Assembly: GCA_964036045.1 (NCBI GenBank)
Contig: OZ038382.1
Location: 111,312,578-111,376,577 of the forward strand
Direction: 5' to 3'
DNA: 64,000 bases
From: Eutreptiella sp. 'Long Island Sound 2002'
Lineage: Eukaryota; Euglenozoa; Euglenophyceae; Eutreptiales; Eutreptiaceae
Position 1 is the stretch's first letter, and every line of letters begins with the position of its first letter. The notes below the pieces were generated by a model. It was not told the origin of the DNA. It saw nothing but the letters and a program-made list of their open reading frames with translations, and did not search any database. Both the position numbers and the translations under genes were made by a program. This document shows positions 349 through 64,000 of the stretch, piece after piece.

Positions 349-358
<10 letters not shown>
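1..358 (-). pseudogene. Frame-shifted C-terminal continuation of the non-LTR retrotransposon protein
   Basis: On the minus strand a frame at about 352-110 continues the protein encoded by 349-4242. It reads as plausible coding sequence (for example CLRGLIVRYWQAAYDGQRDV) and ends at a TGA near 110. One extra base in the C-run at about 359-363 (G-run on the coding strand) would fuse it to the long ORF without a stop. The rest, 1-109, shows nothing I recognise and may be the 3' untranslated part of the element. Seen: the frames and the homopolymer. Inferred: that they are one protein. Confidence 0.45.
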
Positions 359-6378
<6,020 letters not shown>

Positions 6379-8199: not shown

Positions 8200-11095
<2,896 letters not shown>

Positions 11096-35647: not shown

Positions 35648-38425
35648 TCACCAGGAAGCACGGCAAAACACTACATTTCTTGGCTCTGGTGTACACAAAG
35701 CGGTCAGCACCAAGAGATATGCAAGGCAAACCTCGTCCGCAAGTTCCGCATGCCACAGCGCCATAACGAGGCAGCGCTCCAGTTGGTGCGCACTGGATTG
35801 GTCCTCTGTGGCGGCCCCATGGGGCAGCGCAACAGCCCTCAATTTCGTGCACAGGTCTCGCAGCAGGCACACGAGCATCCCGAGGCACGCCACCCCCTTG
35901 GGCCCGTCAAACGTGCTATTCAACAGCTCTTGTGCTCCTGTGACTCTGCGATCCGGTGGCCCAGTGGACTGTGATGATTCCAAACGCGAGATCGGCTGCA
36001 CGTCTCCACTGTTCGCCTCCGGCAGATGCTGTGACGGCTCTTGTGCTCCTCTGACTCTGCGATCCGGTGGCCCAGTGGACTGTGATGCTTCCAAACATAA
36101 GATCGGCTGCAAGTCTCCACCGTCTGCCTCCGGCAGATGCTTTAGCTCCTGATTGGACCCGGAGGCAGAAGAGACATGGTGAGATGAAGATGAAGCGCTG
36201 CCGAAGCCCGCGGAAGAGGACGTGTGATCCCCGTGCAGCTCCATTGCCGGCGCTGGCACCTCTGCCTGGGCCTCGACCGGATCTCCACTTTTGGTGCGCG
36301 GCCAAGGCGATTCCTTGAGGGCCTCAGTCAGCCAACGGGCAAATTGTGCCTCCCTTGTGCCGAGATGCTGCTCCAGCTTCATCACTTGTTGCTGGGTCTG
36401 CATCAGCTGCGACTTGGTTGTCTCCAGCTCGTGGGTCACTTCCCTAAGCCGCTGCTTCGACGTCTCAAAGTCCTGCATTGTCCGCTTGAGTGTGTTCTGC
36501 AAGCCCTGTACTTCCCCAGACAACTGCCTCATGTCGTCTCGCATCGTCATATCAGACTGGGCCGAATGTGCTGCCACACCCAGTGCTGCCCCGCCGTTGC
36601 CCAACCCCTCCGTCCGGTGCCCCCTTGCCGTACCATTTGCAGTGGTGGACTGGCAATCAGCGTACCTAGGCCCGGACGCATCATCACGCAGCCCATGCCC
36701 AGCAGCTTGCAGCTGTGCTAGGCGGTTGAACACCAGTGCGACGTCAGCACGCTGCCGCTGTCCATCCCGGTGGTGTTCCTGCAGCTGCTCTTTGATGGTG
36801 CCTAGCGTAGCCTGCAGGCCGTGCTGCTCGGTACACATGACACTCCAGTGTCTGTGCAATTTGTCAATGGATTGCTCCGCCAGCGCCAGCTTGTCCCGGA
36901 TGCTACGACTGGTTTCAGACGCTGCAGGGCTTGCATGTGCCGGGTGGAGAGTGCTGGACGGCGGTGGGACGGGGGACGTCGGTTGTAGGGTGGGGGATGC
37001 CGAGGATGGTTCTTGTGGTGACGCCCTAGAAGAGGCTGTGATGCCCTGCGCCTGCGCCGGATCCGTGGGCACTTTGGGGCTTGCCATGGCGAATTGTTGG
37101 CTCCTCGACAACATTGCAGTTGGGCTGGATTTGGGTGGCGTCTGGAAGTTTGAGGGACTCATTTCACCGAGCGGATCGCCCGACGACATGCCGCTCTCCC
37201 GCATGAGTTTAAGGCTTAGCTCGCGGAACCTGCGACACTCGGCCTCTAATTCGAGGTTGTCGCGCTGCAGCCTCATGAGTTTCGTGTCGCTAATTTCTTT
37301 CGAGGACTGGAACGGGGGTCCGTGATGGGTCTCGGCCTGCTGGCTGCGTTGACAACCTTGGCTAACGGATTCATTGAGCCCGCTCGCAATCGAGAAGCCT
37401 TCAAGCTTACCATTTGCACCGGGAGGCGGCAAATTTGGAGACTTTGGGCTTCGTTGGGCGCCTAAATGCCTGGGGCCTCGCGTAGGTGTCAACGGTGAGC
37501 CCATGGCATGCCCAACGCTGTTGGGCGTGCCGTTCACGCCATCCGCAGGGCCCTCTGGCCACGCCTTGGGCAGCTCCACCTCTGCAACTGAGATGCCACC
37601 CTGGTCGTGCTGTTCCGCTCCTTGCAGCCCTACCCGGCTGAGCCCGGGGGTCCAATCGGGCTCAACTCCTGAGAGGTCGTGGGCTTTGAGCCGCATAACC
37701 CGATCATCAACGATGGCTTGCAAATGGGACATGGTCACGATGCTGTCATCTGATGTGAACATCCCCATGTCCTCATGCACAGACCTGCTTCGGTCGTGGG
37801 GGCTTGCGGGCGACCCCACATTGCAATAGTCCTCTAGGGCTTGCAAGTCCCCTAAGAGGGAGTCATCTTGCGATGGGGCCGCCAATACTTTCACAAGAAT
37901 GCGGCGTAGGCATTGCGTGACTTCCATGCGCGCGCGTTTCTCATGCCCAAGATGCTCGGCGACCAAGCAATAGTCGTGCCGCATCTTTTTGTACCGCTCC
38001 GCCAACCATCCCACAGCTTGACTCGCAGAATAGGCCGAGCGGCTGGCAGCTGATGTATGATGATCCGCCAAAAAATCCTTTGGCACTCGGTGCGAACCTA
38101 GCCTTTGCCCCGCTCCCACCGAGGGGACGAAAGGCTGCTTCAGCGCCGGGTTAGGGGCATGTCGAAAGGGAGGAGTCATGGAAGTCGGACTCACCCACGC
38201 GTTCAGTTCCGAGATTGGTGGTTGTGGTCCATTGGGAGTGTGAGGGTGAAAATTGCGGTGGTTTTGAGGCGAGTGGGTAGATGTAGCAGGGCTATGAGGA
38301 GGGGTTGAAAATGTGGTGGTGTGAGGGGTTGGAGTCGTTGCATTGCCTTTTCCGGGTCCTTCTTCTTCAACGTCAACTGTGTCGTCCACGAGGTTCGACA
38401 TGGTGGCGCCCAGAGTCACGAACAT
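35648..38425 (-). CDS. Orphan 925-residue Ser/Pro-rich coiled-coil protein
   Basis: A single uninterrupted ORF with ATG at 38425 (alternative ATG at 38401) and TGA stop. Residues 1-110 are Pro/Thr/His-rich and disordered. Residues ~125-200 are helical (GWLAERYKKMRHDYCLVAEH). Predicted coiled coils lie at ~380-405 (LMRLQRDNLELEAECRRFRE), ~500-570 and ~627-700 (LKRTMQDFETSKQRLREVTH), with Ser/Pro linkers. Near 770-845 two ~36-residue tandem repeats share HLPEA and ASQSTGPPDRRV. The C terminus is Cys/Leu-rich. There is no catalytic motif, zinc finger, signal peptide or membrane span. It could be a scaffold/cytoskeletal protein or a gag-like protein of an unknown element. A repeat-free 2.8-kb frame makes a real protein very likely. 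Confidence 0.75.
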   Translation of the reverse strand: MFVTLGATMSNLVDDTVDVEEEGPGKGNATTPTPHTTTFSTPPHSPATSTHSPQNHRNFHPHTPNGPQPPISELNAWVSPTSMTPPFRHAPNPALKQPFVPSVGAGQRLGSHRVPKDFLADHHTSAASRSAYSASQAVGWLAERYKKMRHDYCLVAEHLGHEKRARMEVTQCLRRILVKVLAAPSQDDSLLGDLQALEDYCNVGSPASPHDRSRSVHEDMGMFTSDDSIVTMSHLQAIVDDRVMRLKAHDLSGVEPDWTPGLSRVGLQGAEQHDQGGISVAEVELPKAWPEGPADGVNGTPNSVGHAMGSPLTPTRGPRHLGAQRSPKSPNLPPPGANGKLEGFSIASGLNESVSQGCQRSQQAETHHGPPFQSSKEISDTKLMRLQRDNLELEAECRRFRELSLKLMRESGMSSGDPLGEMSPSNFQTPPKSSPTAMLSRSQQFAMASPKVPTDPAQAQGITASSRASPQEPSSASPTLQPTSPVPPPSSTLHPAHASPAASETSRSIRDKLALAEQSIDKLHRHWSVMCTEQHGLQATLGTIKEQLQEHHRDGQRQRADVALVFNRLAQLQAAGHGLRDDASGPRYADCQSTTANGTARGHRTEGLGNGGAALGVAAHSAQSDMTMRDDMRQLSGEVQGLQNTLKRTMQDFETSKQRLREVTHELETTKSQLMQTQQQVMKLEQHLGTREAQFARWLTEALKESPWPRTKSGDPVEAQAEVPAPAMELHGDHTSSSAGFGSASSSSHHVSSASGSNQELKHLPEADGGDLQPILCLEASQSTGPPDRRVRGAQEPSQHLPEANSGDVQPISRLESSQSTGPPDRRVTGAQELLNSTFDGPKGVACLGMLVCLLRDLCTKLRAVALPHGAATEDQSSAHQLERCLVMALWHAELADEVCLAYLLVLTALCTPEPRNVVFCRASW

Positions 38426-60110: not shown

Positions 60111-60883
60111 TCGAGAATCGGAGGAGACCCCCCTGTTGTGGTTTGTTTCTTGGGAACTCGACTGTGCCTCTTTGTTTCTCGAAAATCCCAAAATACGACA
60201 AACCTCTTCTGCGCAGGATCTTTAGACGGGGCACCAATAATAACACAATCTCGAAGACATAAACCCTGTTCAAAGATCGAAGTATCTTACAGCCCTCATT
60301 CACAGTTGGCATTTGATGCTTCTTTATTATTCACAGACTGCAGTGCGATTGCGACTGCGACTTGCGACTTGCGCGCTGCTGCGCTGCTGCTGTTCGAAGC
60401 CATAACACTACCCCCCCGTTGAGACCTCGAAGAGGTCTCACTCACCTGGGCGGGCGTCACAATGTCGAATATGCAGAGCAGGCCCAGAAAAAATTTTTTT
60501 TGGACCTCGACATGTGTTGGCTACAGAAGCATAACAGTGGTCGAAACTCACACACTGAGGTGCAGTCATGGTACACCTGTCGTCAGCGCCTCATTCATAC
60601 GCCATGTTCGACTCTGCCACGGCTGTGGCTCTTGGCGGAAGCTGCAGAAGACAACCTCGCCAGGCATACTGCACGGGCGCTGTACCCGCAGCAAGGCTGT
60701 TGGCACGTCGAACCATAACATACCATAACATTGGGCACAGCTATCGAAGCTGGATGCCCAGCAGACAAACAACCAACAGGCCTATACATCTGTCAACTCG
60801 ACAGGACATATGAAGGCAGTCGATACCATTAATGGCATCCAGACTGTCGAATAAGCCATTACCTGGCATCCAGACATGTCGAA

Positions 60884-63415
60884 TCAGCAGTCCGTGCCCC
60901 ACGTAAACGTGGATGAAGGATTCACCTGGAGTCGACATACTTCATGCACATCCTTCAGTGTCTCGACGCCCCCCATGAACTTGAAGGTGTCATGACCGGT
61001 GTAGTGTCGACGGATATCACTGTCGAGGGCACGCTTCTGAATCAGGATACCAGATTGATGGTTCAGCAATTGAAGGTTGGGATCACCAGGTCGGTTGTCG
61101 ACGGGGCACTTGTACTGGAATACGAAGACATGTTCACGGGCAAGCGCTCGAAATTGTCCAGGTCCCAGTGTTTGTGCCCTGGTCGAATAGAAGTCCCAGA
61201 GGCTCGACGGGTTCCAAACGTCCTCACGCCACAGATCGGTCCGATTGGTGGCCTCGAAGGAGCATCCGTCATGTCGACCAGTAGACCATCGATAGGTTTC
61301 CTTCGATCCAGTACCAGCGGCCATGCTGTGGTAGAACTGACCAGTTCGCGTATCGACTCGCCACCACGGCGTGTCGGCAATCGAAAGTCGTCGCACGACA
61401 ATGACGGCGCTGATGTTGTCCACTTCAGGGCCGAGGGCATATCGGTCGATGATCTCAAGCATGTCGGTTGGAGAACCTTCTTCTTGGAGTCGACCGAGGT
61501 GTTGATGTACATACTGACCATCAGCGAGGAAACTCTGCAGAGCGAACCGAACCGCTTCTGCAGTCACAAGGCTCGAAGCCGTGTCAACAATGACCGCTTC
61601 GAGGACTTGGTCTCGGCAGCTGACCTTGCGTCGATGTGCAGCCTTAAAGTCATCGTGGATCAGTGTGAGGTACCTGAAGAACGGGATGTTGAAGTGGTGC
61701 TGATAGGCGTTTGACTCCATCGACAAAAACCGGTGATCGACGGGGTCCGGGTGGAACGGGTCACTCGCAGGCGAGTCGGTTTTCTCGATCTCCTCGCGTT
61801 CATCAGTATAGACATCCCTTCGGAACTGGACCGCTCGACGCCAACGTCGTCCACCTTCGTATCCGGCCTCGAAGGGGGACATGAGGTATTTCGAGGTACC
61901 CAGGCGTCGAACCAATTCGGGGGCATCCACGAAAGGGAAAAGGTTGGCGTACTCTTCATTCGATGAGTGAAGCGCAGCAACTCGTCGGATCGCCTTATCG
62001 AAGACGTGGTACCCGAGCCGTCCGGGTCCAGTCTGGTAAATCGTCGCCAACTGGACAAGGTCGATGGGGGCGCCTGGTGTGACGGCGTTGTACGCATAGG
62101 GTTCCGTCTGTTCTCCGAGTCGCAAGTACTCCTGGAGCTGGACCGCAAGGTCCTTTGTTCGATGTGGAGCGCACCCATACCGCTTATACCCAAGTCGAGA
62201 GGTGCCTCGTAGGCCGCGCAGTTGGTGTCGGCGAAGAAGCAAATCGACTTTGTACGCAAGAAAGGGGGCTCGATCTTCGAAGAGCCAGTCGTTCGCCTGG
62301 CAAACCTTCTGAAGATCACGGATAACTCCCATGATCGAAACGGCAACGGGAGCTTCTCGTTTCATCCTTTCGTGGGTCCAGAGGCGTCGATATTTGAAGA
62401 TCAGGTCGATTCCATCGGCAACGTTTATCAGGTCGTCGATTCCCGAGATCTCTCGATGCATGCGGTTGAGTCGAGCAATTTGACTCGGCAGGGTATATTC
62501 GGTGAGGCTTTGTCGGAATCCCCAATCGAGCTCTTCATCACAACGTCGCCACTCGACGAGGGCTGCTCGAAAGTTCTGACAAGCCACTTCGATTCTTGTA
62601 TACCACTGGTATCCCGGCTTACCACCAAGATTTCCACGCTCATCGAAAGACGTGTCAGGGGCGCTTCGAGCCAGTTCGTAAGGGAATGGTGCGGTTCGTC
62701 CCCACCTGTCGATGCAGATGGTCTTGCCTAAGTCGGAAATGGTGGCATTTGCTTTCGAGACGGCTGCAGCATGTTTCTCGTTCAGGAACGCGTGCGGTCC
62801 TCGAAAACCAGCCATGGCGCTCGACGCAATAGTGAGTACCGATGGTTCGAGCTTAGTGTATTCCGTCTTCATCGGATCATCCTCATGTGTCCCAAATCGA
62901 TAGGGTGGCTTCAATCCGAACGTGCCCAAGTGTCGGAGTTCTTCGATGGTCTCGATTTCATGATTGTACTGCGGCATGTTATAGGGCTGCCACTTCGACT
63001 CTCGCACCGGCACAGAATCGTAGCTGCGCGGTGCTGTCGACCACACGGGCTCGTAAGGATATTCTTCTTCGTCGTCGGACTCGAGTGGCCAGGGTTCATC
63101 GTCGTCGTTGTGGTCGTCGTCGTGGTAATAGGAGTCGGATTGGTTCGTTCGAGTAGAAGCTTGTGTTTTTGGGGCATTTGGAATGCCAGGATTGGTCGAC
63201 CCAGTCGTCTTCGACTTTCTGCTCTGCGGTACCCGGTTCCTCCCTGGATGGCCTTGATGTCCAGGTGTTCGGCCTCGATGTCCAAGAACTGTCGACCCAT
63301 CCGGGTGCTGAACAGAGGAAGGAAGATCAGTTGTCGTACCCCGTGTAGCAAGCAAGATCTTCATCAGAATCGAACCAGTCAGGGCTTGAGCACCGCTCTC
63401 GAAAGTATTCTGCAT
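60884..63415 (-). CDS. Orphan 843-residue protein
   Basis: ATG at 63415, TGA at 60884; uninterrupted. Residues 1-95 are Pro/Gly/Ser/Arg-rich; 96-126 strongly acidic (DDDHNDDDEPW, ESDDEEEYPYEPVW). From ~150 on it is globular and Trp/Tyr/Arg-rich (LDWGFRQSLTEYTLPSQIAR, LIFKYRRLWTHERMKREAPV, SSAEEYANLF-like region, DTPWWRVDTRTGQFYHS). There are no zinc knuckle, protease, RT, signal peptide or membrane segments. Coding-like sequence continues upstream in another frame (63917-63340), overlapping by ~75 bp, so the real N terminus is probably longer, reached by splicing, a +1 frameshift, or after correcting an indel. Unknown family; an element- or virus-derived protein is possible but unproven. Confidence 0.7.
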   Translation of the reverse strand: MQNTFESGAQALTGSILMKILLATRGTTTDLPSSVQHPDGSTVLGHRGRTPGHQGHPGRNRVPQSRKSKTTGSTNPGIPNAPKTQASTRTNQSDSYYHDDDHNDDDEPWPLESDDEEEYPYEPVWSTAPRSYDSVPVRESKWQPYNMPQYNHEIETIEELRHLGTFGLKPPYRFGTHEDDPMKTEYTKLEPSVLTIASSAMAGFRGPHAFLNEKHAAAVSKANATISDLGKTICIDRWGRTAPFPYELARSAPDTSFDERGNLGGKPGYQWYTRIEVACQNFRAALVEWRRCDEELDWGFRQSLTEYTLPSQIARLNRMHREISGIDDLINVADGIDLIFKYRRLWTHERMKREAPVAVSIMGVIRDLQKVCQANDWLFEDRAPFLAYKVDLLLRRHQLRGLRGTSRLGYKRYGCAPHRTKDLAVQLQEYLRLGEQTEPYAYNAVTPGAPIDLVQLATIYQTGPGRLGYHVFDKAIRRVAALHSSNEEYANLFPFVDAPELVRRLGTSKYLMSPFEAGYEGGRRWRRAVQFRRDVYTDEREEIEKTDSPASDPFHPDPVDHRFLSMESNAYQHHFNIPFFRYLTLIHDDFKAAHRRKVSCRDQVLEAVIVDTASSLVTAEAVRFALQSFLADGQYVHQHLGRLQEEGSPTDMLEIIDRYALGPEVDNISAVIVVRRLSIADTPWWRVDTRTGQFYHSMAAGTGSKETYRWSTGRHDGCSFEATNRTDLWREDVWNPSSLWDFYSTRAQTLGPGQFRALAREHVFVFQYKCPVDNRPGDPNLQLLNHQSGILIQKRALDSDIRRHYTGHDTFKFMGGVETLKDVHEVCRLQVNPSSTFTWGTDC

Positions 63416-63984
63416 CGACCGGGGGCGGGGGCCCGTACAGCTTACAGAGTTCTGGCTGCATGTCGGGTGGGGTCCCTCCCTTGGTCGGTTCCGGAACAGG
63501 CCAGTTGGCCAGGGCTATCTCGAGCACTTCCAAGCCTGTGGCGCCTCATGATATGAAGGGCCGTCCACTCGGCGCTATTCCTGCAAATTTCCCGCGAGGG
63601 AACACACCTCCCTTGCCTCCTTTTGACGGGCCTCCTTTTCCTTTCGAGCTCCCAGCATATGCCGACTGGCTGCAGTTCGGCGGTTCGAATGGATCGAGAG
63701 GTCGACTCGGACGAGTTGGAGCTGATGCTACCAACAAACAGCGGCCAGTTGAAGTCGTCCTCGCTGGGGGTTGGGCACCAACGTTGTCATTGATCGCGTC
63801 AACATCGATGACGTCCGACGGTGATGCTCGAGAAGGCGGAGGTCGAGAGTAAGTTCGGGGCGTCCGGGATGTAGTACCATAGGCGGAGGCTCCGGCGATC
63901 GACCCGGAACCTCGCATGAGTTTTTCGAAAAACCACGCTGCAGAGAAGAGTAAGGTTACTCAGGGTGGAGTCGAAGGAACTCAA
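63340..63984 (-). CDS. Upstream overlapping frame of the orphan protein, partial
   Basis: One phase from 63917 to ~63340 reads RTYSRPPPSRASPSDVIDVD, a Gly/Lys/Ser linker, then one TGA near 63546, then LEVLEIALANWPVPEPTKGG, PPPPVDAEYFRERCSSPDWF and DSDEDLACYTGYDN, ending TGA near 63330. The 843-codon ORF is in the +1 phase. Just past the end lies CTTCCTTCCTCTGTTCAG, an excellent 3' splice site. 63799-63984 has another short frame. The start of the gene is outside the window or unresolved. Confidence 0.45.
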
Positions 63985-64000
63985 GGTACACAGGATCCTC

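Follow-up and report, generated by a model that had tools for sequence, protein, structure and literature searches.

A dispersed, evenly spaced TCGA word along a Ty3/Gypsy-type retrotransposon of Eutreptiella: a candidate self-recognition signal

What maintains a dense island of TCGA tetranucleotides at the end of an otherwise TCGA-poor stretch of DNA? The question is raised by a 64,000-nucleotide sequence from Eutreptiella sp. 'Long Island Sound 2002' (contig OZ038382.1, C5:111,312,578-111,376,577, in a genome of 2.28 Gb), which we refer to as the window. Judged by its sequence, the island is a single copy of a Ty3/Gypsy-type long terminal repeat (LTR) retrotransposon. Our statistical results support the view that a dispersed, spaced and oriented word is kept by selection acting in the active life cycle of this element. 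We consider it very likely that there is some selection on the word and, more tentatively, view the word as a candidate binding site for an element protein on RNA.

The island itself is real. A recount yielded 93 TCGA sites in 60111-63971, with a mean gap of 42 bp and a longest gap of 124 bp, and the comparison counts of the initial annotation proved exact (7 sites in 349-4242, 8 in 35648-38425 and none between 59539 and 60111). The onset that it placed near 60111 lies instead at 60134, where the LTR ends, and the site at 60111 belongs to the host flank, so that 92 sites lie inside the element portion of the window. Alignments with other copies start at query bases 20-24 (window 60130-60134) in 36 of 37 cases and at base 106 (60216) in one. 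The rest of the window contains 2.0 TCGA/kb (120 sites in 60133 bases), and TCGA is the most enriched tetramer of the island relative to it (12-fold), followed among the CpG-centred tetramers by TCGT (3.3-fold) and TCGG (2.4-fold), with the other 13 reaching at most 1.5-fold. Beyond the window end, the island continues at about 20 TCGA/kb to around position 4900 of the fetched locus L009 and then ends. The part that lies within the window comprises the following features, which include an open reading frame (ORF) termed ORF3.

60111-60133, no strand: flanking host DNA that includes one TCGA and finishes in CCCCC, which agrees with the C-run on the far side of the other LTR and is a possible 5-bp target-site duplication.
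60134-64000, minus strand: TCGA-dense element part within the window, with 92 sites by count.
60134-60407, minus strand: 3' LTR, reading TGTTGTGG...CCATAACA on the plus strand, with 5 TCGA; it matches the 5' LTR, and the alignment of copies starts here.
60408-60418, minus strand: putative polypurine tract, G-rich on the sense strand, assigned by its position just inside the 3' LTR.
60884-63307, minus strand: main exon of ORF3 (mechanical ORF 60884-63415, 843 amino acids), downstream of the integrase.
63308-63607, minus strand: GT...AG intron of ORF3, about 300 bp with 4 TCGA, precisely absent from some copies.
63608-63917, minus strand: first exon of ORF3, an ORF beginning MRGSGS that resembles the N-terminus of the related protein P0001.

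The complete element spans 10,202 bases on the minus strand, from 60134 to about C5:111,382,912, with its last 3.87 kb inside the window; the suggestion that the island might be an integrated element is thus confirmed. Its LTRs (about 275 bp; 5' LTR region at L009 4638-4922) are 97.9% identical over 285 aligned bases, and both end in TG...CA, with G-runs outside. GGGGG is found on either side of the element, but within these G-runs. The internal order on the minus strand is Gag with a CCHC zinc knuckle (PF00098, E 2e-8), reverse transcriptase (RT) with RNase H, an integrase with H2C2 and rve domains, and then ORF3. The RT/RNase H region maps to L009 3-1760 and the H2C2 and rve domains to L008 8951-9991, both on the minus strand, with the integrase downstream of RT-RNase H. 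For the RT, whose closeness to Ty3 was judged on solved structures alone, the best PDB matches are Ty3 RT (4ol8, E 5.6e-72) and Ty3-G Gag-Pol (7q5b, 8.5e-72), followed by 8r0s (5.4e-43). Pfam detected no aspartic protease in the two ORFs of this copy that were checked; the related protein P0109 matches PF13975 and PF13650. Site-specific insertion was considered and rejected, because the adjoining bases differ among the 18 copies, out of 20, in which the LTR edge was located (all but L012 and L025). Four pairs of copy flanks have repeat sequence in common, at different points.

Across the whole element, we counted 221 TCGA sites, corresponding to 21.6/kb or about one per 46 bases, compared with about 2/kb in the host flanks. 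Every long ORF has a density of 19-25/kb, and the individual non-ORF parts have 17-39/kb. Dinucleotide-preserving shuffles gave only 68±7.4 sites (300 shuffles, highest 88). Similarly, shuffling of synonymous codons gave 14.3±2.7 sites for gag (29 observed), 28.4±3.9 for RT-integrase (57 observed) and 34.3±4.1 for ORF3 (65 observed), and the observed count was reached in none of 2000 shuffles for any of the three. Both kinds of shuffle, which the initial annotation had named as possible refutations, thus fall short, and selection at the level of the nucleic acid rather than the protein, the gist of its view, is supported. Protein sequence and codon usage do explain about half of the coding sites. 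Nevertheless, with observed counts that no shuffle reached, an enrichment of TCGA far beyond that of the next CpG-centred tetramer and a regular spacing of sites, an origin by chance, codon usage or foreign base composition is extremely improbable, and we treat these causes as excluded by the shuffles and the spacing.

The spacing sets the word further apart. Sites are under-dispersed, as initially suspected, with a coefficient of variation (CV) of gap lengths of 0.58, compared with 0.92 for random placement (minimum over 5000 placements 0.745). The longest gap in the element measures 147 bp, and none of 5000 random placements had a longest gap that short. Of the 25 tetramers that occur at least 60 times in the element, no other has a CV as low as TCGA (median 0.98), and the next-lowest values (0.77-0.82) belong to CGAG, CCGA and GTCG, all of them words related to TCGA. 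Gaps under 14 bp are scarce (11 versus 42.8 expected), as are site pairs 4-13 bp apart (11 versus 48 expected), and beyond about 14 bp the pair density lies at 0.7-1.3 of normal. A second site inside one footprint therefore seems to earn nothing. Gaps of 40-59 bp are in excess (62 versus 35 expected), a distance that is short for the nucleosome-linker mark proposed at first (pair counts to 123 bp). The window part of the island contains a single tandem pair (31 bp).

The pattern is shared by the relatives of the element. A search with the window part, in which 38 of 3009 candidates were scored so that the copy number is a lower bound, returned at least 37 other copies with 92-98% identity over the main piece. 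All of the 20 near copies that were cut out, including that of the window, have 23.1-25.7 TCGA/kb within the matched part, compared with 57 TCGA in 29.9 kb of their host flanks. When P0012, a 59%-identical ORF3 relative, was used as a query, at least 125 matching pieces of 60-100% identity were found (78 of 3922 candidates scored). All 16 fetched ORF3-related loci, which are not all independent (identity to the window copy 95-97% for six, 90% for one and 71-86% for nine), show 14.4-30.5 TCGA/kb and gap CVs of 0.43-0.77, with TCGA as the top tetramer in 15 of them. The first 10 of 150 listed RNase-H matches all belong to this lineage (13.5-21.3 TCGA/kb), with gap CVs of 0.54-0.61 in seven. Moreover, two more divergent copies (82-87% DNA identity) have a TCGA-rich pol, with the density starting where the homology starts, and relatives down to about 70% DNA identity retain the density. 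Divergent gag families also exist, with 144 matching pieces for the query P0121.

By contrast, another abundant, intact LTR family, family B, stays at a background of 2.3-2.5 TCGA/kb (L066-L070; L065, at 9.65/kb, was excluded because its coordinates overlap a TCGA element inserted at C6:125,900,489), which rules out TCGA richness as a property of all LTR elements here. Four actin loci contain 1.8, 1.8, 1.8 and 5.3 TCGA/kb and show no sign of a host-wide exon mark, three of them being closely alike, so that they represent in effect two genes. An equal density genome-wide, the other refutation initially considered, fails in all host sequence read; the rarity of TCGA outside the lineage was judged on the one other LTR family and on these host stretches. 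It is conceivable that a host RNA- or DNA-binding factor involved in splicing, export or silencing escape reads TCGA and is exploited by the lineage, since the lineage is spliced, with 6 of 37 other copies lacking exactly its roughly 300-bp intron, and another genomic repeat is rich in TTCGAA words. However, given the background density in three of the four actin loci and in another abundant LTR family, we regard this explanation as unlikely, and an element protein is the simplest reader.

Family B elements have an open frame of about 1640 amino acids (at least 127 matches) and show, on their sense strand, a strand-specific, roughly 3-fold excess of CAAG, TGGA and CTAC, which may reflect codon usage or a further word of the sense strand. 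On C12 and C7, several actin matches are close neighbours, and the loci read there (L073-L075) have frames that are unbroken across nearly the whole Pfam model and thus contain no intron in the matched part.

As subfamilies diverge, TCGA sites are kept more often than similar words. Within ORF3, at 72-80% DNA identity (76 ordered pairs), 63.1% of the TCGA sites are retained, compared with 39.1% of other NCGN words and 39.6% of all tetramers. The corresponding values are 69.0%, 55.8% and 55.2% at 80-90% identity and 56.6%, 29.9% and 31.6% at 60-72% (12 ordered pairs, each involving L047). In each identity bin, at least nine other words, mostly less frequent ones, rank equal or higher. Upstream of ORF3, two loci kept 138 of 186 and 84 of 125 TCGA sites, compared with 270 of 479 and 166 of 370 other NCGN words. 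Neither horizontal origin, one of the meanings first considered, nor composition is supported as the cause, given this conservation of positions beyond that of similar words and an abundance of TCGA far above that of all other words. At the same time, positions turn over: the window copy and L049 have 30 sites in common out of 45 and 46 aligned, and sites lost between subfamilies become many different words.

This diversity of products also bears on the idea that a biased mutational process in the replication cycle, such as RNA editing, error-prone reverse transcription or gene conversion, makes TCGA without any selection. A scarcity of TTGA on the sense strand (29 versus 58 in a first-order model) that is not matched by a scarcity of TCAA (51 versus 45) could reflect such a directional change, and the polymorphism test described below provides no sign of purifying selection in the young family. 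However, biased mutation would not by itself space the sites or deplete short gaps, nor does it sit well with lost sites turning into many different words, making this scenario distinctly unlikely.

Once a copy has integrated, the word receives no special protection, a result that bears on the methyltransferase target among the meanings first proposed. Among 19 copies (the truncated L018 was left out), we counted 45 post-insertion singleton transitions at 90 sites for the CpGs of TCGA and 90 at 204 sites for other CpGs, and CpG transitions are raised about threefold per base (0.22-0.25 versus 0.078 for other C/G). TCGA thus decays like other CpGs, and any selection would need to operate ahead of transposition or in its course. 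The hypermutability of CpG further suggests that the host probably methylates this dinucleotide.

The word also has a direction. On the sense strand, C is found at position -2 in 98 and T at position -1 in 82 of the 221 sites, whereas the mirrored letters account for 61 and 45 sites (P 0.004 and 0.001, respectively, among 16 comparisons), and CTTCGA occurs 44 times on the sense strand and 19 times on the other. In the coding parts, the fraction with C at -2 is 0.464, compared with 0.306 in codon-shuffled TCGAs. In the parts beyond the long ORFs, 12 of 44 sites have CT directly before them (9 of 39 without one LTR, 6 of 33 without both), whereas no site in any of these sets is followed by the mirror AG. 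The direction of the word thus seems to be tied to transcription, pointing to an RNA site or a directional DNA site.

Based on these properties, it is tempting to speculate that an element protein binds the word on RNA for coating or packaging, an explanation that we favour while still placing it below the probable. TCGA, preferentially preceded on the sense strand by C at -2 and T at -1, recurs every ~46 bases, and each word would be bound over a footprint of about 14 bases. Its reader, for which the zinc knuckle of Gag and the product of the orphan ORF3 are the candidates, would be seated all along the element RNA, which would thereby be coated, protected or packaged. ORF3 qualifies as a candidate by being peculiar to this lineage. 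More broadly, it comes close to being probable that the oriented word, with its ~46-base spacing and ~14-base exclusion zone over coding and non-coding parts alike, is a self-recognition code read by Gag or ORF3 that would reserve coating, and escape from the host, for self RNA (or self DNA).

Several observations weigh against this interpretation. The orientation bias is modest (smallest P 0.0013 of 16 flank comparisons) and weak over the distinct ORF3 columns of all subfamilies (C at -2 0.406; CT 0.089 versus AG 0.079). In predicted local folds of the sense-strand RNA, TCGA is not unusually unpaired (0.121 versus a mean of 0.166), and the CpG palindrome at its core is of a kind often seen in sites on double-stranded DNA. 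Three of the 10 RNase-H loci are less regular, with CVs of 0.75, 0.75 and 1.56 (the last, L052, having a 730-bp gap). TCGA is also present in the intron (4 in 300 bases). In addition, a McDonald-Kreitman-type test in the young family did not support selection (23:36 versus 41:95, P 0.25); shared variation was, if anything, higher at TCGA than at the other CpGs, and recurrent mutation of CpG may obscure the outcome of this test. Finally, the AlphaFold model of ORF3 reached a pLDDT of 27.8 and was not used for a fold search.

Searches with ORF3 found nothing in Pfam, no PDB sequence below E 0.5 and no PHROG below 0.05, and its relatives from protein searches are unnamed ENA proteins only. Its gene structure suggests that it can be made from two exons. 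The intron (query 3200-3497) is missing from 6 of 37 other copies, and five of these six junctions were read (L060-L064) and all agree; the 298 bases listed become 300 with a two-base overlap, and the 3' end is pyrimidine-rich. The frame of P0001 (911 amino acids) is continuous across the exon junction. Near the start of the second exon, the reading frame of the window copy differs from that of the spliced copies. The precise loss of a GT-AG intron implies that spliced RNA was reverse transcribed, and both spliced and unspliced RNAs of this retrotransposon have served as templates. Alternative splicing of gag-pol was considered as well, but both junctions in L050 lack GT-AG and were taken as deletions.

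An alternative to RNA coating or packaging that we consider possible, and almost as likely, is a DNA-level mark against silencing, in which an element protein, again with ORF3 as a candidate, would bind TCGA on integrated DNA and block silencing in the manner of VANC. VANDALs are DNA transposons. VANC proteins keep silencing off the VANDAL elements of Arabidopsis and their motifs are likewise dense only in their own family and in a single orientation (PMC5735166). The palindromic CpG core, the extra orphan ORF common to the lineage, the restriction of the dense word to its own family against near-background levels elsewhere and the probable methylation of CpG by the host, deduced from the threefold rise in transitions, are all consistent with such a mark. 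However, VANC sites are mostly non-coding and grow by tandem repeats (PMC5735166), whereas here coding parts are equally dense and a single tandem pair is found in the window part of the island. Moreover, the decay of TCGA at the pace of other CpGs after insertion argues against lasting protection.

Other features of the window and genome are recorded here in their own right. A search of the genome with the TCGA pattern gave 391+410 matches, compared with 81+99 for the reversed control, many of those listed being TTCGAA words. A different dispersed repeat (L003-L005, C1:14,439,288-14,444,523) has coding-like frames broken by intron-like blocks, which are rich in inverted TTCGAA words (L004 1470-1560 and 2650-2760). 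Within the window, 349-4242 (minus strand) holds a 1297-amino-acid ORF without a Pfam match above the cut-off, in a sharp block of 66% GC that ends at a 198-bp AT array, and 35648-38425 (minus strand) holds a 925-amino-acid ORF with weak, below-cut-off coiled-coil Pfam matches only. Near-pure, long AT dinucleotide arrays lie at 4241-4438, 5649-5844 and 9698-9934, near tandem arrays with units of about 162 bp. TTAGGG-type telomere repeats are found at the contig start C2:1-3000 (L031) and are absent from three other starts read.

How retroelements distinguish their own nucleic acid from that of the host is an open question, and to our knowledge the signals described for retroelement self-recognition are local. 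If the self-recognition code proposed here is true, a genome-long, evenly spaced word that persists through large sequence turnover would constitute a distributed identity tag. In addition, tetramer spacing, besides density, can expose such codes in raw sequence.

With Ty3/Gypsy elements (Metaviridae), this retrotransposon shares its LTRs, a CCHC Gag, the order of RT-RNase H followed by integrase and an RT that is nearest to yeast Ty3 in the PDB. It differs from them in its orphan, intron-containing third ORF after the integrase and in the evenly spaced TCGA along its full length; we know of no Ty3/Gypsy element that combines such an evenly spaced word with an orphan intron-containing ORF. Among the papers listed by literature searches there was no precedent for a dispersed TCGA word, a weak result given that the term is swamped by the cancer atlas of the same name. 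The VANDAL/VANC system resembles it in a dense short motif that is confined to its own family and has one orientation and in an additional, trans-acting gene (PMC5735166). It differs in that VANC motifs are mainly non-coding tandem repeats (PMC5735166), whereas ORFs and non-ORF parts are similarly dense here, and ORF3 matches no Pfam family.

The packaging signals of LTR retrotransposons and RNA viruses provide a further parallel, in that the RNA is recognised by Gag or a coat protein for selection. The known packaging signals of LTR retrotransposons, and the dispersed ones of RNA viruses, are local or structured. Unlike these signals, the candidate site described here is a four-base word that recurs 221 times along the element without special predicted structure.

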